42,027 nucleotides of DNA, taken from contig DYRG01000009.1 in NCBI GenBank assembly GCA_020718845.1, positions 1 to 42,027 on the forward strand. The letters are read 5' to 3'. Both the position numbers and the translations under genes were made by a program. Source of the stretch: Thiomargarita sp. GTDB taxonomy: Bacteria > Pseudomonadota > Gammaproteobacteria > Beggiatoales > Beggiatoaceae. The notes beneath the pieces are model-generated. The model was given only the letters and a program-made list of their open reading frames with translations. It had not been told where the DNA came from and ran no database searches. This document shows positions 6,550 through 15,872 of this stretch, piece after piece (position 1 is the stretch's first letter; every line of letters starts with the position of its first letter).

Positions 6550-6866
6550 ATGAACAAGGAGAGAGAAGGGGGAATTGAATTATTTGACGGAGGTGTTGCT
6601 CCACCCCTAAATTTTGTAGAATGGTTAAGAGAGAAACATCCGAAAGCAAGAAATGTTTTAATATGGGATTGTGCGAGCTACCATAAATATGGAGCATTTA
6701 GAGATTATTTGATTGAAAAAATAAAGGATTAATGGAAAAAAGTTGGCAATTAGTTGTGTAAATTTTTCTCCATATGCCATCCAAGAAAATCCTGTAGAAG
6801 ATATTTGGTTAACACCCCAAAATTGAATCAGAAAAAATTATTACAAATATGAAACATTTGAGCAAT
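6550..6866 (+). pseudogene. IS630-family transposase remnant, C-terminal catalytic half
   Basis: The first frame (to 6732) encodes NFVEWLREKHPKARNVLIWD and CASYHKYGAF, the block with the second catalytic Asp. After a frame change, NFSPYAIQENPVEDIWL (third acidic residue) and NYYKYETFEQL follow up to 6866. The N-terminal half is missing and there are stops and frameshifts, so it is dead. A hairpin repeat (6590-6607) is embedded in frame as GVAPP. It is followed directly by a MITE. Confidence 0.85.
6590..6607 (+). repeat. TTGCTC-loop hairpin, copy 1
   Basis: Stem GAGGTG, loop TTGCTC, stem CACCCC (one A-C mismatch), inserted in frame in the IS630 remnant. First of five copies in the window (also 7199, 7306, 14648 and 15471). 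Confidence 0.75.
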
Positions 6867-6971
6867 TATAGTGTAATTTCTCTAAAATGATGAATAGGAA
6901 TATTTTTATTGCATTGATTTTCAATAAATTTTCATAATTCATCTTCACACAAATCCACTCATCACACTATA
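6867..6971 (+). mobile_element. MITE-like element, copy 1 (about 105 bp)
   Basis: The ends form an inverted repeat: TATAGTGTAAT at the left and ATCACACTATA at the right. The whole element is repeated in reverse orientation at 14802-14908 with nearly identical sequence and no coding capacity. TA at the ends fits the TA target preference of the IS630/Tc1-mariner group, so an IS630-type transposase is the likely mover (inference). Confidence 0.75.
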
Positions 6972-7198
6972 TAGTATAATACCTAAAAACAAATGAAGAA
7001 TAGAGAAAGAGGAAAGAAAAGATGAGTTACGGATTAGAATTAAGAGAAAGGGTAATAGAGTTTGTATTGGAAGGAAAAACAATGCAAGAAGCGCATAAGA
7101 CATTTAAAGTCCATTACAATACGATTTCAAAATGGTTGAATAGATATTTGGAAGAAGGATACCTCAATCCAAAAGAAGCCTATCGGCAAGCACCTGCG

Positions 7199-7216
7199 GG
7201 GGTATTGCTCTACCCC
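7199..7216 (+). repeat. TTGCTC-loop hairpin, copy 2, with compensated stem
   Basis: Stem GGGGTA, loop TTGCTC, stem TACCCC. Relative to the 14648 copy, one stem base pair is changed on both sides (G-C to A-T), so pairing is kept. It interrupts the transposase reading frame after APAG. Confidence 0.75.
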
Positions 7217-7305
7217 TAAAATAAATTGGGAAGAATTAAGAGATTATGTTAAAGAGAATCCCGATTTAACTCAAGAAAAATATGGAGAACATTTTGGGGT
7301 TTCCC

Positions 7306-8095: not shown

Positions 8096-8512
8096 TTATT
8101 CGGTTGGTTGCTTTTTTATTAAAGAAATGATTTCCTTGAGATGGGTGTTTTCTTCTTTTAAATAGCCAATTTCTTTCGCTTGTTGTTCGATAATTAAATG
8201 CGCTTTTTCTAATTCGTGAACGCATTGGGTTTCGCTTAAAACAATATTACATTTTATATTATTACTATGAGTGTAATTTTCAGCAAAATTAAAAACATTT
8301 TCTCCATTTAATTCTTTTAATAAAAGTTCTAATTTTTGCCAATCTATTCCTATCGTTTTAATAATTTCTTCTGCTTTCTCATCATCAATTTTGGTTTTGC
8401 CGCGTTCGACTTTTCCGTAACCGCTCACCGAATATCCTAATTTCTCAGCCATTTTGTCTTGTGACCAACTTTTTAATGTACGAACCGCTCTAAGTTTTTC
8501 ATGAAAGTGCAT
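8096..8512 (-). CDS. XRE-family helix-turn-helix regulator with C-terminal coiled coil
   Basis: 138 residues. Residues 4-65 form a lambda-repressor-like helix-turn-helix (LRAVRTLKSWSQDKMAEKLG, then SVSGYGKVERGKTKIDDEKA). Residues about 100-135 are a predicted coiled coil (HELEKAHLIIEQQAKEIGYL, then KEENTHLKEI), probably for dimerisation. It lies 12 bases upstream of the vapB-like gene in the same direction, so it may share or control that transcript. The inverted repeat at 8551-8578 is a candidate operator. Targets are unknown. Confidence 0.85.
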   Translation of the reverse strand: MHFHEKLRAVRTLKSWSQDKMAEKLGYSVSGYGKVERGKTKIDDEKAEEIIKTIGIDWQKLELLLKELNGENVFNFAENYTHSNNIKCNIVLSETQCVHELEKAHLIIEQQAKEIGYLKEENTHLKEIISLIKKQPTE

Positions 8513-8550
8513 AAAATCTACCCTAAAAGTGATGAAAATAATCCTTTTTG

Positions 8551-8578
8551 GCTCTGTTATCTTCCAACATTACAGAGC
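8551..8578. promoter_or_regulatory. Inverted repeat between the XRE gene and the YVTN gene
   Basis: GCTCTGT and ACAGAGC are separated by 14 bases in the 112-base gap between two divergent genes. It could be the operator of the adjacent XRE regulator; this is inferred from position only. Confidence 0.4.
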
Positions 8579-8624
8579 ATTATAGTCAATCTTTGCAAAT
8601 TTACTACTTTTCTTTGGAGGCAAC

Positions 8625-10091
8625 ATGATGATTAAACATTCAAGATTCTGGCTCGGCGCATTCGCAGGAGCCTTTTTAATAACCCAAGGCGCACAAGCCG
8701 ATAAACTTTATGTCGCTAATCAAGGCGGTAGCACTGTTAGCATCATAGATACCGATGCTAATAATACAGTAAAATCAGTCACTACAAGTAGCGGTGCGGT
8801 TGGTGTTGCAGTAAATGCTGCTGGGACAAAAGTTTATGTAACAAATAGCGGTGGTGATACTGCAAGCGTTATAGACACCAGCACTGATAAAGTGTCAGCC
8901 ACTATTAATTTAGGAAACTTTCCTAACGGTATAGCAATCCATCCAACTAATGGACGTGCTTATGCAAGTAATTGGTTTAGCAATAGTTTAAGCGTAATTG
9001 ATACGAGCACAAATAGTGTAACTGCAACTATATCAATAGGAACAAATCCTGAAGGAGTTGCTATCAATCCAACTATGAATCGAGTTTATGTTGCTAATGT
9101 TTCTAGCAATACGGTTAGCGTAATAGATACTACTAATAATACAGTAGTAAAAACCATTTCTGTTGGAGAAAGTCCTCATAACATTGTCATTAATTCATCT
9201 GGTACTCGCGTTTATGTCACTAATCTTAAAAGTAATTCTATTAGTGTAATAGATGCTAGTAATAATAGTGTTGTAAGCACTTTAACGGTAGGAAACTTAC
9301 CTAACAATATAGGAATTAATCCATCAGGAACGCATTTGTATGTACCTATCAATCCCGTGAATGGTAATGGTGCTGTTCAAGTAATAAATCTTAGTGACAA
9401 TAGTATTACATCAACTATTTTAGTAGGTTTAAGTCCCTATGGAATAAAATTCAATTCAACGGGTTCACGAGCTTATGTTGTTAATGCAAAAAGTGGTAAT
9501 GTCAGCATAATAGACACTAATAGCGATACAGTCATTTCAACTGTTACAGTAGGAAGCTGGCCAATGGGAATTGCTGTTGTTTCAACAAACGCTTGCCCAG
9601 CAGATAGTAATGGTTCAACACAAACAGGTATTGATTTAGTTAAAGCCACGCCAAGCAATTACAGTTTATTTACGCAAACTCAAATAGATGCAGCAAAACA
9701 AAGCGGCATTCAATCTTGTAAAGATAATCCAACAACTTGCGGTATTTCTATTTCTAGTGGTTTTACGCAAGCACAAATGGATGCGGCAATAAGTACAGCT
9801 AAACAAAGTTGTAAAACAAATCCCGCTTCTTGTGGAATTACGGTTAGTCAAAATACCGATGGTTCAACACAGGCTGGCATCGACCAATGCAAAGCTGATC
9901 CAAATTGTAAAGGAACTTCTTCTATTTCGGGGATTCACGCGACTTATGATGCTGCAAAAGGAGAATTGCACGTTCCTTTTGTTGATTTAATAACACTTGG
10001 TGTTGTTCAAACTTTCGACGTGTATTTGTTACAAAGAAACGGTTCTTTCACCTTTGATTTAGATTTGAGCAGAGTTGCTTTAGTCCAATAA
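8625..10091 (+). CDS. Secreted YVTN beta-propeller protein with Cys-rich repeat tail
   Basis: 488 residues. Signal peptide MMIKHSRFWLGAFAGAFLIT, with cleavage near AQA-DKL. From about residue 26 to 320 come seven to eight repeats of about 42 residues with the YVTN pattern (e.g. LYVANQGGSTVSIIDTDANN and RVYVTNLKSNSISVIDASNN), a seven-bladed-propeller family found in surface proteins. After it, three short Cys-pair repeats appear: CKDNPTTC, CKTNPASC and CKADPNC. The conserved-looking end is GSFTFDLDLSRVALVQ. Its last 19 codons and 3' flank are duplicated at 12971-13140. GGAGG precedes the start. Ligand unknown. Confidence 0.88.
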   Translation: MMIKHSRFWLGAFAGAFLITQGAQADKLYVANQGGSTVSIIDTDANNTVKSVTTSSGAVGVAVNAAGTKVYVTNSGGDTASVIDTSTDKVSATINLGNFPNGIAIHPTNGRAYASNWFSNSLSVIDTSTNSVTATISIGTNPEGVAINPTMNRVYVANVSSNTVSVIDTTNNTVVKTISVGESPHNIVINSSGTRVYVTNLKSNSISVIDASNNSVVSTLTVGNLPNNIGINPSGTHLYVPINPVNGNGAVQVINLSDNSITSTILVGLSPYGIKFNSTGSRAYVVNAKSGNVSIIDTNSDTVISTVTVGSWPMGIAVVSTNACPADSNGSTQTGIDLVKATPSNYSLFTQTQIDAAKQSGIQSCKDNPTTCGISISSGFTQAQMDAAISTAKQSCKTNPASCGITVSQNTDGSTQAGIDQCKADPNCKGTSSISGIHATYDAAKGELHVPFVDLITLGVVQTFDVYLLQRNGSFTFDLDLSRVALVQ

Positions 10092-10103
10092 TTGAGCAAA
10101 ATT

Positions 10104-10140
10104 AAACCTGACAGGTTTTTGAAACCTGTCAGGTTTTTTT
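10104..10140 (+). terminator. Terminator of the YVTN gene
   Basis: A perfect 15 bp stem (AAACCTGACAGGTTT / AAACCTGTCAGGTTT) with a 3-base loop and a T run. Each arm is itself nearly palindromic. Confidence 0.85.
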
Positions 10141-10162
10141 ATAGTGAAATATTTATAAAGAC

Positions 10163-10185
10163 GTTCCACGTTCGAGTGTGGGAAC
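10163..10185. repeat. GTTCC...GGGAAC palindromic repeat, copy 1
   Basis: An imperfect palindrome starting GTTCCACG and ending GTGGGAAC, inside the 170 bp repeat; the second copy is at 13101-13123, where one base change in the centre improves pairing. Similar GTTCCCACGC-type palindromes are common as REP-like elements in related bacteria (recollection, not searched). Confidence 0.5.
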
Positions 10186-10202
10186 AAGTTTGAAAAAGCT
10201 AT

Positions 10203-10314
10203 ACTAACAGAAGACCGTATTTGTGGAACAATAAAAAGCAAATTACGAGATTTGTTTAGCGGCATCATAAAGAAAAAAGGCTTAACGGTTAAGGAATTAC
10301 TCAAAAAAGAATAA
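10203..10314 (+). pseudogene. Fragment of the 3' end of an unknown gene
   Basis: An open frame with no start reads ILTEDRICGTIKSKLRDLFS, then GIIKKKGLTVKELLKKE and a stop. It begins exactly where the 170 bp repeat ends, and lies before a hairpin. Codon pattern and the basic C-terminus look coding. The family was not recognised. Confidence 0.35.
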
Positions 10315-10320
10315 AAAACT

Positions 10321-10339
10321 CCCCTCTTAAAAAGAGGGG
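10321..10339. terminator. Hairpin between the gene fragment and budA
   Basis: Stem CCCCTCTT / AAGAGGGG with a 3-base loop between convergent reading directions. The A tract on its left favours use by the - strand gene budA. Confidence 0.6.
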
Positions 10340-10380
10340 ATTATGAGGGATGGTGTTTATCTCATACCAAAAATTAAAAT

Positions 10381-11154
10381 TCATTTTTGCAGTTTTTCTA
10401 CTTTTTCTAAATCTGCTTGTTTATCTTCGGATAAATCAACATGATAGAAATGTTCATTATTTGGGACAATCATCGAAAAATTTGAGATTTCATCGATTTC
10501 AAGTTGCGCATTATCAATTACAAAATCTAAAATATGTCCACCCGCTTGTTCGTTTGTGGTTAAATAATGCAAATGATAACCCGTAACATTTATCCCTTTG
10601 AAATAACTAGGAAAACGAAATCCTACAATTGTTCCTTCCGAATTCTCAAAATCAAAAATCGCTTGTTGATTTACAATGTCTTTTAAAAGACGATAGGGCT
10701 TTTCTTGCTTTGCAACACTTCTAGTTTTCATTTGCTTAAATTTTCCTTTAATTTTAATGGCGTAAAAAATATTAGTTGTTGGGAGTATTTTATCGATAAA
10801 TTGTTCAAGTTGTTTGAAATCTAATGCTTGGTTTAAAAGAAGGGTTTTATCGGTTTTAAAAAAGGTAACAACGGCAGAAGGGGTACAGGTTTCTAAAGGG
10901 GGTTGAATTGTTTTACCATTTTGAGGAACTTGATAAATATTTCCATTTAGAACAACCATTTCTCCATTCAATGCATTGAATGTTCCTAAACCAAAATCTC
11001 CATATTGTTTTAATTTTCCAATCTGAAAATCGCTGTCATAAACCCCGCTTAATAACGCATCGATAGTCGATATTTGCATTACTTGATCGGTTTGTGCATA
11101 AACCATCACTTGCAATAAAAATGCAAAAGCAAAACTTATTAATTTTCTTATCAC
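10381..11154 (-). CDS. budA: Acetolactate decarboxylase, with signal peptide
   Basis: 257 residues. Converts alpha-acetolactate to acetoin with CO2 release. Zinc ligands H194, H196 and H207 are in GYHLHYLTTNEQAGGHILDF. Active-site candidates E65 (NGEMVVLNG) and R145 (KTRSVA) are also present. Residues 1-20 (MIRKLISFAFAFLLQVMVYA) are a clear Sec signal peptide ending at YA-QT, so the enzyme should be exported; most bacterial enzymes of this family are cytoplasmic. No acetolactate synthase or butanediol dehydrogenase is nearby. It lies downstream of the exported apyrase but is separated from it by a hairpin. Confidence 0.92.
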   Translation of the reverse strand: MIRKLISFAFAFLLQVMVYAQTDQVMQISTIDALLSGVYDSDFQIGKLKQYGDFGLGTFNALNGEMVVLNGNIYQVPQNGKTIQPPLETCTPSAVVTFFKTDKTLLLNQALDFKQLEQFIDKILPTTNIFYAIKIKGKFKQMKTRSVAKQEKPYRLLKDIVNQQAIFDFENSEGTIVGFRFPSYFKGINVTGYHLHYLTTNEQAGGHILDFVIDNAQLEIDEISNFSMIVPNNEHFYHVDLSEDKQADLEKVEKLQK

Positions 11155-11178
11155 GTTTATATCCTCATTTAAAAGAAA

Positions 11179-11208
11179 TCTCCCATTACTTTTAAAAATA
11201 ATGGGAGA
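11179..11208 (-). terminator. Terminator after the apyrase gene
   Basis: Stem TCTCCCATTA / TAATGGGAGA lies 12 bases past the apyrase stop; on the - strand it is followed by a T-rich run. It separates the apyrase from budA. Confidence 0.7.
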
Positions 11209-11220
11209 AAAACTAAAAAA

Positions 11221-12384
11221 TTATTTCAAACAACCTTTATCCAACCAACGACAGAAAGGAGGAGTTTTAGCTGCTGGTTCTAAGCATTTGTTTTCTTTAC
11301 AAACTACTGCACCTTGCGTCCAACTTACGTTTAGTTTTGGTGCATCAACGGGGATTTTAAAGGTTTCAAGATATTTCACTGGATAAATTGAACGATAACA
11401 GAATTTTTCTTCATCGCTTAATTTAGGGTCTTTTACACAATAGGTTTCAATATTAGCCGGATTGATATAATTAAATGCACCGGTTAGAAACCATTTATTA
11501 GAGTCCGCTTTGTCAATGGGTGGTTGTTCTTGAGAACCTAACTTTTCTCCCACAAAGTTATACGGATCACGCACACCTTTCTCTACGGTTAATTGGATTT
11601 GATTTGCACAATCTTGGGGTTTCCAATTAGCTTGTTTTGTTGCAGCACCGTTCACGCAACTTGTTGGTAGACCTAAACTTTTTGGTGCTTCATCTTGACC
11701 CAATCCTAAATAAGAATAACTATACATTTTCAACGCTTTACCATCTAATTGAATAGTTCTGGTGCTTGGTTGAGTATCTTCACATTTTGAACAAGGAAAA
11801 GTAATTTGTGCAGATGCACCGCCCATTTCTGCAATACCAAAGGATTCATTCTTTTGTTGTTCACGCACGGCTAACCACGCAAATAAACCTTCTTCAAATC
11901 CTGTTAAAGTTTTAGCATCAACATCGACTTTCTCACCTAATTTTGCTACTAATTTTTGTTTCAAATTAGTCCACAAAGTTAAGCTTCTTTCTTTGTTAGA
12001 TTGCTCTGCTAGACGCATACCCGCCGTTGCATATACTGCCGCCGATTTGATTTGACATTGTTTTGACCAATCAAATGCTTTCCAAGCTGGTTTGTTATTT
12101 TTAACAGGACCATCTTGTTTAATAGAATCTAATGCGGCTACAACTTCATTTAAAACCGAATCCACATCTTGCCATTTCTTACCCCGAAATTCTCTCACGG
12201 GATCAGCTAATGCTGTTACTTTTGGACCTTCGTGTTCTACCCAATTTTTCCCTTGTTGTTCATATACATACAAACGAGTTCCACTACTCCCTGCATCATA
12301 AAGAATATGACAAACCGGCAAATCTGCCATTGCAACTGATGAGACAAACATCAGTCCACTAAAAAATGCTTTTTTCATCAACAT
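11221..12384 (-). CDS. Exported apyrase (GDA1/CD39 nucleoside phosphatase family)
   Basis: 388 residues from the ATG at 12384, which has GGAG 6 bases upstream; a TTG at 12396 lies within that ribosome site and was rejected. Signal peptide ends near AMA-DLP. Apyrase conserved regions: ACR1 DAGSSGTRLYVY (30-41), ACR2 YATAGMRL, ACR3 TGFEEGLFAW with the catalytic Glu, ACR4 AEMGGASAQITF. It hydrolyses nucleoside tri- and/or diphosphates, probably in the periplasm or outside. The family is mostly eukaryotic; Legionella has secreted members. Several Cys residues in the C-terminal half may form disulfides. Confidence 0.92.
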   Translation of the reverse strand: MLMKKAFFSGLMFVSSVAMADLPVCHILYDAGSSGTRLYVYEQQGKNWVEHEGPKVTALADPVREFRGKKWQDVDSVLNEVVAALDSIKQDGPVKNNKPAWKAFDWSKQCQIKSAAVYATAGMRLAEQSNKERSLTLWTNLKQKLVAKLGEKVDVDAKTLTGFEEGLFAWLAVREQQKNESFGIAEMGGASAQITFPCSKCEDTQPSTRTIQLDGKALKMYSYSYLGLGQDEAPKSLGLPTSCVNGAATKQANWKPQDCANQIQLTVEKGVRDPYNFVGEKLGSQEQPPIDKADSNKWFLTGAFNYINPANIETYCVKDPKLSDEEKFCYRSIYPVKYLETFKIPVDAPKLNVSWTQGAVVCKENKCLEPAAKTPPFCRWLDKGCLK

Positions 12385-12474
12385 AATTATCTCCAAATAA
12401 GTTCAAAAAGAGCGTTTAGTATAATGCATCTTTTTGTGCATATCAAATAAATTTACCCATACTAACCTGATGCT

Positions 12475-12945
12475 TTAGTTATGCGCCTTCATAACTCGTG
12501 ATTTCTCACGTTGCCAATCACGATCTTTCTCTGTATCACGTTTATCATGTTCTTTCTTGCCAGTTGCCAATGCGATTTCAAGTTTTACCCGATTATTCTT
12601 CCAATACATTGCGACTGGAATTAACGCTTTTCCTTTACGCTCTACTGCACCGATGAATTTGTTCAGTTCCTCACGATTTAATAATAATTTGCAAGTGCGA
12701 TTGTTTTCTGGAACATAATGCGTAGAAACCGTTCCTAACGGCGTAATTAATGCGCCTAGCAACCATGCTTCTGCATTTTTAATAATCACATACGCATCAC
12801 GCAATTGCACTTTGCCAGCACGCAAATTTTTTACTTCCCAACCTTGCAAAACCATACCGGTTTCAAAACGTTGTTCTAAAAAATAATCAAATCAGGCTTT
12901 CTTATTCAAACAAATTGTACCTGAAGCAGCTTTTTTGTCAGCCAT
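12475..12945 (-). pseudogene. smpB: SsrA-binding protein SmpB, interrupted by an in-frame TGA at codon 18
   Basis: SmpB binds tmRNA and rescues stalled ribosomes. The full-length frame (156 residues, GAGG ribosome site before the ATG at 12945) reads MADKKAASGTICLNKKA, stop, [20 protein letters not shown], then [10 protein letters not shown]. The TGA (12892-12894) sits where the family has Arg in NKRARHEYF, so a single CGA or AGA to TGA change explains it. Everything after is intact to [10 protein letters not shown] shorter product could start at the internal ATG at 12855 (126 residues) but would lack the first tmRNA-binding strand and has no clear ribosome site. Sequencing error, real pseudogene or internal start remain possible. 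Confidence 0.85.
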
Positions 12946-13041
12946 AATTCCTCTCTTTTCCTTTAAAATAAAAGAAACGGTTCTTTCACCTTTGATTTAG
13001 ATTTGAGTAGAGTTGCTTTAGTCCAATAATTGAGCAAAATT

Positions 13042-13078
13042 AAACCTGACAGATTTCAAAAACCTGTCAGGTTTTTTT
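13042..13078. terminator. Terminator hairpin within repeat copy B
   Basis: Same hairpin family as 10104-10140 but with a mismatch in the left arm. It lies downstream of tyrS on the - strand and could reduce read-through into smpB. Confidence 0.5.
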
Positions 13079-13100
13079 ATAGTGAAATACTTATAAAGAC

Positions 13101-13123
13101 GTTCCACGCTCGAGTGTGGGAAC
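13101..13123. repeat. GTTCC...GGGAAC palindromic repeat, copy 2
   Basis: Copy with a central CTCGAG, part of the 170 bp repeat B. Confidence 0.5.
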
Positions 13124-13149
13124 AAGTTTGAAAAAGCTATCTAAGGATT

Positions 13150-14343
13150 TTATTTCACTAAAACCTTTGCGAAATGGCGTTTGCCGACTTGATAAACTTG
13201 TTGAGAACCGACGTTAATTTGTAACTGTTTGTCAGTGATTTTCTCGCCGTTGATTTTAACTGCGCCTTGATCGATTTGACGCATTGCCTCAGAAGTGGTT
13301 GCAACTAAACCCGCTTCTTTGAGCAAATTCGCAATTTTGAGAAATCCTTGTGGCGCATTGACGGTGATTTCTGGTAAATCATCTGGCAATTGATTTTGAC
13401 TAAAACGTTGAATGAAATCTTGATGCGCAGATTCGGCAGCATTTTGATCGTGGAAACGTGCAATTAATTCTTTGGCTAAATCGATTTTAATGTCACGAGG
13501 ATTCTTACCTTCTAAAGCGGCTTTTTTCAAACTTTCAATTTCAGATAACGGTTTGAAACTCAACAATTCTAAATAACGCCACATTAATGTATCAGAAATC
13601 GACATAATTTTTCCAAACATTTCAATTGGTTGCTCACTAATACCAATGCTATTTCCTAACGATTTCGACATTTTATGAACGCCGTCCGTTCCTTCTAAAA
13701 GTGGCATCGTTAAAACGATTTGTGGTGCTTGTCCAAAATGTTTCTGCAATTCACGTCCGACCAATAAATTAAACTTTTGATCTGTTCCGCCTAATTCAAC
13801 GTCTGATTTGAGAGCAACTGAATCGTAACCTTGCACTAATGGATAGAGAAACTCATGGATTGCAATCGGTTGATTATTTGCGTAACGTTTGCTGAAATCA
13901 TCACGTTCTAACATTCGAGCAACCGTGTGAGTAGCCGCGAGTTGAATTAACTCAGAAGAACTTAATTTATCCATCCATTGAGAATTAAAGCAAATTTCAG
14001 TTTTATTCAAATCCAAAATTTTGCCGACTTGTTGCTGATAAGTTTGAGCATTTTCAAGGACTTGCTCTCGCGTTAAAGGTTTGCGAGTAATATTTTTACC
14101 CGTCGGATCGCCAATCATCCCCGTAAAATCCCCGATCAAAAACAACACTTGATGACCTAAGTCTTGGAATTGCTTGAGTTTATTCATTAAAACCGTATGA
14201 CCCAAATGCAAATCAGGCGCGGTCGGATCAAAACCAGCTTTAATGCGTAAGGGTTTGTTTGTATTAAGTTTTTTAATCAATTCCTCTTCAATAAGGATTT
14301 CTTGTGCGCCGCGTTTGATTTCTGCTAAAGCATTGCTGATCAT
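13150..14343 (-). CDS. tyrS: Tyrosyl-tRNA synthetase
   Basis: 397 residues; a class I synthetase that charges tRNA-Tyr. The HIGH-like motif is HLGH (46-49) and KMSKS is at 224-228. Tyr-binding segments [20 protein letters not shown] and a C-terminal S4-like RNA-binding domain ([20 protein letters not shown]) are present. Full length with no odd residues. The transcript runs toward repeat copy B and smpB. Confidence 0.97.
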
Positions 14344-14647: not shown

Positions 14648-14665
14648 AGGGGTGTTGCTCCACCC
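14648..14665 (+). repeat. TTGCTC-loop hairpin, copy 3 (perfect stem)
   Basis: GGGGTGTTGCTCCACCCC: a 6 bp perfect stem with loop TTGCTC, immediately before the IS630 3' remnant. Confidence 0.78.
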
Positions 14666-14722
14666 CAAAAATTGGATCAGATAAAATTATTATCAATATG
14701 AAACATTTGAGCAATTAATAGG
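14666..14722 (+). pseudogene. IS630-family transposase 3' end remnant
   Basis: The stretch matches 6818-6866 with few changes and encodes the transposase tail NYYQYETFEQL after a NWIR-like segment. Only the last ~18 codons remain, starting right after the hairpin. Confidence 0.7.
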
Positions 14723-14801
14723 ATATTGTTATGATTTTTTCAAAACCCGTATTTTTAACTTTGAGAAAATTTGGCTGCGCCTTTTCTCTAATTAATCTAT
14801 A

Positions 14802-14908
14802 TATAATGTGATGAGTGGATTTGTGTGAAGATGAATTATGAAAATTTATTGAAAATCAATGCAATAAAAAAATATTCCTATTCATCATTTTAGAGAAATT
14901 ACACTATA
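14802..14908 (-). mobile_element. MITE-like element, copy 2 (inverted)
   Basis: Reverse complement of 6867-6971, with two extra T in a T-run and one change in one terminal repeat. It lies 80 bases past the IS630 tail, so both MITE copies are next to IS630 remnants. Confidence 0.75.
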
Positions 14909-15192: not shown

Positions 15193-15678
15193 TAACCTGA
15201 GTTCGGGATAAGGAAGTAGATAACATATTGAATTTCCAGAAAAATTGTTGATAATGGCGTTTGCGACTTTACTACAACCACTTAATATGGAGATTCTCGG
15301 ATATGATAAACTTTGTTGAATTATTTTGTCACGTCGATGATTTTTGCCGACGTTTTATGCTAGTGTATTAAAAAACGTTTTTTAGAACAATAGGTTAAAC
15401 ATCATAAAACCCGTGAGTGTTCTTTAAGTACTTCCGAAATTATAACCATCATTCTTTACTTTTATCATTTGGGGTGTTGCTCCACCCTTTAAAATGATGT
15501 ATGAACTTGAGCATACTAAACATCGTTGCTTAACAGGTTTGATGATTCATTTGCTCGGGGTTTTAATTGCTTATTCTTGGCAATCTCTCAAACCCTCTTT
15601 ACGCTTACGAAAATATTCTCCTTCTTCTCTTTCTTCTAACCTTTATTCATCTTAAAATATTATCCCGAACTCGGGTTA
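15193..15678 (+). mobile_element. Internally deleted IS982-family element with both terminal repeats
   Basis: Terminal inverted repeats of 19 bp: TAACCTGAGTTCGGGATAA at the left and the complement at 15660-15678 (one mismatch). Inside, an N-terminal transposase piece starts at 15303 (MINFVELFCHVDDFCRRFML), continues after frame damage as KTRECSLSTSEIITIILYFY, and stops at a hairpin at 15471. A C-terminal piece follows (MMYELEHTKHRCLTGLMIHL, then GVLIAYSWQSLKPS). The central catalytic part is missing. The 486 bp length is about half of a normal IS982 element. No target duplication is obvious. Confidence 0.85.
15471..15488 (+). repeat. TTGCTC-loop hairpin, copy 4, at the IS982 deletion point
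   Basis: Stem GGGGTG, loop TTGCTC, stem CACCCT (outer G-T pair). It lies exactly between the N- and C-terminal transposase pieces, where the central part is missing. Confidence 0.75.
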
Positions 15679-15872
15679 TAAAAAATGACTTGCAATCCTT
15701 TGAAAGCTATGCGATTATCATGAGCAATGGGAATTGCAGTTTGTTTCACTTTGAAACAGTTTCTTGATAAACATAGTTGGTGTAGGCGGGACTATTTATC
15801 CGATATTTTATTGTTGGATAAGCATTAGTCGAAACTCGGTGATAGATCAAATAAATAGCAGGAGAAAAAGCA

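Follow-up and report, generated by a model that had tools for sequence, protein, structure and literature searches.

A direct repeat and a broken second smpB in a Thiomargarita contig are best read as an ordinary relic of genome shuffling

In a contig of Thiomargarita sp., a 170-nt direct repeat brackets the genes for an acetolactate decarboxylase (budA), an apyrase-like phosphatase and a broken second smpB. We found that this locus is probably a dead-end composite of two ectopic copies, in which smpB would have arrived first and the 170 nt later, followed by the decay of smpB. We give this reading a probability of about 0.55. The window analysed is a stretch of 42,027 nucleotides (contig DYRG01000009.1 of assembly GCA_020718845.1, positions 1 to 42,027), and positions refer to it unless another contig is named.

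Repeat finding across the whole window returned one direct repeat longer than 100 nt, a gapless pair with 96% identity. Copy A (10033-10202) and copy B (12971-13140) have the same orientation, are 170 nt long each and are spaced by 2938 nt, so that the coordinates, length and orientation given for them in the sequence-only reading were exact. In a base-by-base comparison 163 of the 170 positions matched, and the longest identical run was 44 nt. Three of the seven mismatches are adjacent (10119-10121 versus 13057-13059) and form the spacer of a palindrome, which reads TTG in A, whereas B has the reverse complement CAA. These three look like one event and are best counted as a single 3-nt inversion. 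All four remaining mismatches are transitions, and one of them changes a palindrome arm of B. Each copy contains the last 18 codons of a beta-propeller ORF with the stop codon, a hairpin and a GTTCC palindrome, as had been described before, and the identity of A and B continues for 111 nt beyond the stop codon. The hairpin, a 33-nt palindrome with 15-nt arms (10104-10136 in A, no strand assigned), had been called a terminator. A hairpin scan supported this name on the - strand for both copies and on the + strand for A, where the palindrome is terminator-like in both directions, and did not support it on the + strand for B.

The source of the unit is the gene for a beta-propeller (YVTN-repeat) protein of 488 aa at 8625-10091 on the + strand (TIGR02276, E 1.1e-70). 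Its ORF crosses into A without a break and ends there, and B has only its last 18 codons. These results indicate that A, on the + strand, is the source copy. In B the left edge falls inside this ORF, as in a partial duplication, and B (also + strand) is an excerpt with two abrupt edges. To its left lie 25 nt that belong with smpB (12946-12970, - strand), and its right end is 9 nt before the stop codon of tyrS (13150-14343, - strand; PF00579), the only tyrS match in the genome. Copy B was thus correctly described as lying without an attached gene between tyrS and smpB. No other beta-propeller homologue of this genome exceeds 40% identity.

An open frame of 42 codons plus a stop crosses the right edge of A (10186-10314, + strand), and no Pfam match was found for 41 of its residues. 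A second copy of this stretch was not found either; apart from copy B, 10180-10380 had only fragmentary matches elsewhere, of 31 nt and 24 nt. The frame only hints that A is native on the right, being too short as proof in AT-rich DNA in which it may be there by chance, and position 10202, the right end of A, could itself be a joint.

Three ORFs of at least 100 aa lie between the copies, all on the - strand: budA (10381-11154; TIGR01252, E 4.5e-75), the apyrase-like GDA1/CD39 family nucleoside phosphatase (11221-12396; PF01150, E 6.2e-21) and the second smpB (12475-12945). No transposase was found in the 170-nt unit, and neither a transposase nor a recombinase among these three ORFs. A mobile cassette was considered and rejected on the latter count. 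The locus resembles a composite transposon or IS-flanked segment in having direct repeats on both sides of three genes, but differs from one in that no transposase was found in the unit or the larger ORFs and that the only annotated coding part of the repeat is the tail of a gene. The flanking repeats show no sign of belonging to a transposable element, since the unit was found only twice and its coding part is this beta-propeller gene tail. A promoter scan gave no more hits than expected by chance (11 versus 11.4 in shuffles) and is uninformative on promoter loss.

We determined how often the unit occurs. Its full length was matched twice in the organism's own genome (2,979,191 bases in 123 contigs), and no third full copy was found in these 2.98 Mb with 40 of the 49 first-look candidates scored. 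The comparison set comprised 57 genomes including its own, 36 of them from the same family, 21 from other families and none from the same genus. The full-length unit was not found in the 56 other genomes among the matches listed, best E-values first, with up to 14 candidates scored per genome; the matches listed there centre on the palindrome inside the unit. Within the organism's own genome, the matches at 12 other sites are confined to the palindrome and its surroundings and span 33 to 59 nt (among the same 40 of 49 candidates). The palindrome region was matched in 32 of the 36 same-family genomes versus 0 of the 21 from other families. Besides A and B, the genome has three more sites for the GTTCC palindrome (10163-10185 in A, no strand assigned) when up to 3 mismatches are allowed. 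The 33-nt palindrome is therefore like REP-type dispersed palindromes, with its 12 other sites, whereas the 170-nt unit, which includes coding sequence, shows no such dispersal. The sequence-only reading had held that presence in dozens of unrelated places would make the bracketing a matter of chance. With two full copies found among the candidates scored, the reading of the unit as a dispersed repeat was rejected, and only its inner palindrome is dispersed.

The smpB gene directly inside the boundary had been called damaged, and in this assembly codon 18 of its frame is indeed a stop. When the long open part of this gene was searched against the family, a second, open and full-length smpB came up in the same genome, located behind glgP on another contig (C77). 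Window positions 12477-12972 align to positions 8166-8661 of the C77 stretch (L128) as a single match with 91.3% identity, and by eye the identity begins at 12473. The homology covers the whole gene, stop codon included, together with about 27 nt upstream of the start, and it stops at the left edge of copy B. The shared 5' flank (12946-12970) has 1 mismatch in 27 positions compared, and its C77 counterpart consists of the last 10 nt of the glgP frame and intergenic bases. As an open smpB is present on C77 and the homology ends at copy B, the window smpB is the spare one of two, and between the apyrase gene and tyrS two copied pieces make up the composite block 12473-13140. The tail of glgP in the shared flank fits derivation from a glgP-smpB arrangement. 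The frame in the window is not intact, with its stop at codon 18, and the 126-aa frame after this stop scores 161.7 against the SmpB equivalog model, above the cut-off of 130; the C77 copy scores 208.8. GC3 is 0.306 in each copy, and this equality gives no compositional sign of a foreign donor. Among the paper titles and abstract beginnings listed in our searches, we found no report of this locus or of a similar broken second smpB.

The two smpB copies differ at 43 of 471 positions. Silent changes are present in 28 codons (including the terminal stop codon), and 10 codons have changed meaning (including the stop at codon 18). The dN and dS values were 0.029 and 0.40 by NG86, and 0.027 and 0.30 by YN00. 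We simulated free drift of one copy in 20,000 runs. With 21 changes, which assumes an even split between the two copies, a mean of 14.4 codons changed, and 10 or fewer changed in 2.6% of runs. With 42 changes the mean was 28.1, and 10 or fewer were reached in 0 of 20,000 runs. Since free drift gives more than the 10 changed codons seen, these results suggest that both copies were under selection for much of the time since they parted. The ten residue differences were also compared with nine relatives. The window copy departs at four invariant positions and the C77 copy at one, with five positions that are unassignable; this pattern fits a recent loss of constraint in the window smpB.

We next consider the family. 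Among 42 family genomes including its own, matches were found for smpB in 38, tyrS in 41, glgP in 40 (several weak), budA in 6 and the apyrase in 2; the tyrS matches in two genomes (G014 and G018) were only at about 30%. Adjacency of tyrS and smpB had been envisaged as the ancestral state, and the survey did not bear this out: among the 37 other genomes of the family in which smpB was matched, none shows the two genes side by side, a count from which contig breaks could hide cases. They share a contig in five of the 37, at 24.5 kb to 2.1 Mb from each other. The remaining 32, among them G014 and G018, have the two genes on separate contigs, so that adjacency could be masked by a contig end, and in one genome (G017) both lie less than 400 bases from a contig start. 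The expected absence of budA and apyrase from relatives held insofar as both are patchy (5 and 1 of the 41 other family genomes, respectively), and nothing ties their gain to the repeats. Being patchy, both may be gains. The only other genome with the apyrase (G061) has its budA on another contig. Neighbouring glgP and smpB were not seen in any other family genome, subject again to contig breaks that could hide cases, and the C77 arrangement is for this reason probably itself derived. A tblastn search with nine proteins of the two loci against 12 smpB loci of nine relatives found only smpB, at loci of which nine hold about 1.5 kb or less per side. In a TyrS search of a contig collection, the best match was 72% and none was close among the best 80 of at least 592 matches, in a collection from which records near the window may be absent; these 80 included Thiomargarita and Thiotrichaceae records among many other Gammaproteobacteria and Betaproteobacteria. 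The excerpt at this place had no full-length match among those listed for the 56 other genomes, of which none is of the same genus and none was seen with tyrS beside smpB, and a locus in its state before the insertion was not encountered.

The relative ages of the two copyings were compared by divergence. Copies A and B have 4 substitutions in 167 nt when the spacer is set aside, and smpB has 28 synonymous differences over roughly 100 such sites (Fisher p 7e-10); when all 7 mismatches in 170 nt are counted, p is 5e-8. With far fewer differences between A and B than synonymous ones in smpB, the A/B copying looks younger than the smpB divergence. Either the copying of the 170 nt is the later event, or the smpB piece had already diverged in a relative when it was acquired. 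Copies A and B could also have been kept alike by gene conversion, which would make the copying older than it appears. Intergenic DNA may also change more slowly than synonymous sites, as the 27-nt smpB flank with its 1 mismatch hints.

The composite could have arisen in three steps. In the first, the second smpB with about 27 nt of 5' flank would have entered the gap between the apyrase gene and tyrS, its donor being the glgP-smpB locus now on C77 or the same locus in a close relative, and would have been under selection for much of its divergence from the C77 copy. In the second, of which the product is seen, illegitimate recombination or template switching would have placed a copy of the 170-nt excerpt of the beta-propeller tail, 2.9 kb away, directly at the 5' edge of smpB. 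In the third, smpB, severed from its upstream region, would have gained the codon-18 stop and the changes at conserved residues that are present in the sequence. This order of smpB, 170 nt and decay is the one that we infer from the divergence values. The 170-nt unit would have no function of its own, with its hairpins carried along. The earlier suggestion that the segment or a second gene was rearranged here stands as to rearrangement, which is visible in the block 12473-13140, and finds no support as to the repeats as borders of a unit, since the beta-propeller gene passes into A without a break.

The left joint of B reads ...AAAATAAA followed by AGAAACGG..., and it is the only joint that is readable for shared sequence. 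By inspection, the parents share about 2 nt there. With so little in common, homologous recombination is an unlikely maker of this joint, and illegitimate recombination or template switching would be the simplest. In joining short distant excerpts with about 2 nt in common and abrupt edges, the locus is like dispersed partial duplications or templated insertions; the papers listed in a search on this subject, by their titles and abstract beginnings, concern eukaryotic cells, and here the mechanism is one that we infer. The 3-nt inner spacer may have flipped as by template switching at inverted repeats. A passage in PMC8604942 names spacer inversion as a product of such switching, and the 3-nt spacer reversed between 15-nt arms in B is like it. 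The case in B differs in that an arm is also substituted and that the inversion is seen between two copies of a single genome instead of along a lineage. In principle, homologous recombination through the 44-nt identical run could remove or double the 2.9 kb.

Other histories were weighed against this one. Tandem duplication of 10033-12970 head to tail, followed by deletion of the second copy except for its first 170 nt, would produce exactly the end-to-start joint seen between smpB and copy B, fits the direct orientation and agrees with the divergence data. It requires two independent illegitimate events at one place, however, and a second budA or apyrase was not found in the genome; we consider it unlikely. 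A single crossover of the Campbell type, by which a circle or segment with budA, apyrase and smpB entered an ancestral order of beta-propeller gene, 170 nt and tyrS via the 170-nt homology, would likewise leave direct repeats at both ends. The patchiness of budA and apyrase in the family and the unproven native right edge of A are in its favour. But B is 5'-truncated within coding sequence, so the donor circle would need an illegitimate joint of its own; the ORFs of at least 100 aa in the segment are budA, apyrase and smpB only, and the ancestral order was seen in no relative searched, none of them of the same genus. This integration seems quite unlikely to us.

We also give little credence to a single repair or replication event that joined both pieces of 12473-13140 from two distant loci as a multi-template insertion. 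If it took place, DNA taken up from a close relative would have supplied the smpB piece, with its high synonymous divergence, and the resident chromosome the 170 nt. The sequence-only reading had offered a second beta-propeller gene between smpB and tyrS, deleted except for its tail. Copy B does start inside coding sequence and end past the stop codon, like the remnant of a gene; yet the identity of A and B over 111 nt past the stop points to a duplicated segment and not merely a homologous gene, and the low identity (at most 40%) of the other homologues in the genome likewise makes such a gene improbable. An assembly artefact might be suspected in a draft genome of 123 contigs, but the copies differ at 7 positions, the flanks of each are distinct, and a third copy that could cause a misjoin was not found, which renders this explanation highly improbable.

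Read as two successive ectopic copyings, the locus shows no sign of a mobile unit or switch and is best taken as an ordinary relic of genome shuffling. It would illustrate on a small scale how direct repeats that resemble the borders of a mobile unit can be left behind by short ectopic copies and by template switching at palindromes, and it probably has little significance beyond this genome. For annotation it carries a warning: loss of smpB from the organism should not be concluded from the broken gene in this contig, since an open full-length copy exists.

The AACCTGACAGGTT-type palindrome at 10104-10136 forms the inner part of copy A of the 170-nt direct repeat. Matches to this palindrome were found in 32 of the 36 same-family genomes searched, and in none of the 21 searched genomes of other families. 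It may be a dispersed hairpin that is specific to the family.

A GGGGTGTTGCTCCACCCC-type palindrome is present in four copies in the window, at 6587, 7196, 14646, and 15468, with copies 2-4 being 71-86% alike to the first. The 211-nt stretch at 15469-15679 has a second occurrence (86%) on contig C40 of the same genome, at 99-309 of L129, the part of C40 compared with the window. There it adjoins a sequence matching, at 40%, the C-terminal part of the 488-aa YVTN-repeat beta-propeller protein encoded at 8625..10091 (+). The sequences at 6813-6973 and 14661-14908 are two rearranged copies of one element: they share 57 nt that run the same way in both (91%) and 109 nt that are inverted in one relative to the other (97%). 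Near these copies, the ORF at 7022-7219 resembles the start of an IS630-type transposase below threshold (27.8 bits against a cut-off of 100). The element could be an insertion sequence or MITE that was broken and had its inner part flipped.

A GDA1/CD39-family nucleoside phosphatase is encoded at 11221-12396, and its start appears signal-like by eye. It was matched in just 1 of 41 other family genomes, at 50% identity, and the gene was perhaps gained by acquisition.

The long open part of the damaged second smpB (12475-12945, minus strand) was used as the smpB query. In the draft family genomes G060 (C198:3004-3375) and G034 (C42:2426-2797), the sole smpB matched has one internal TAA. Another family genome, G030, has two smpB matches, the second of which (C162:9066-9452) shares just 41% identity with the query. 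Spare smpB copies may recur within the family.
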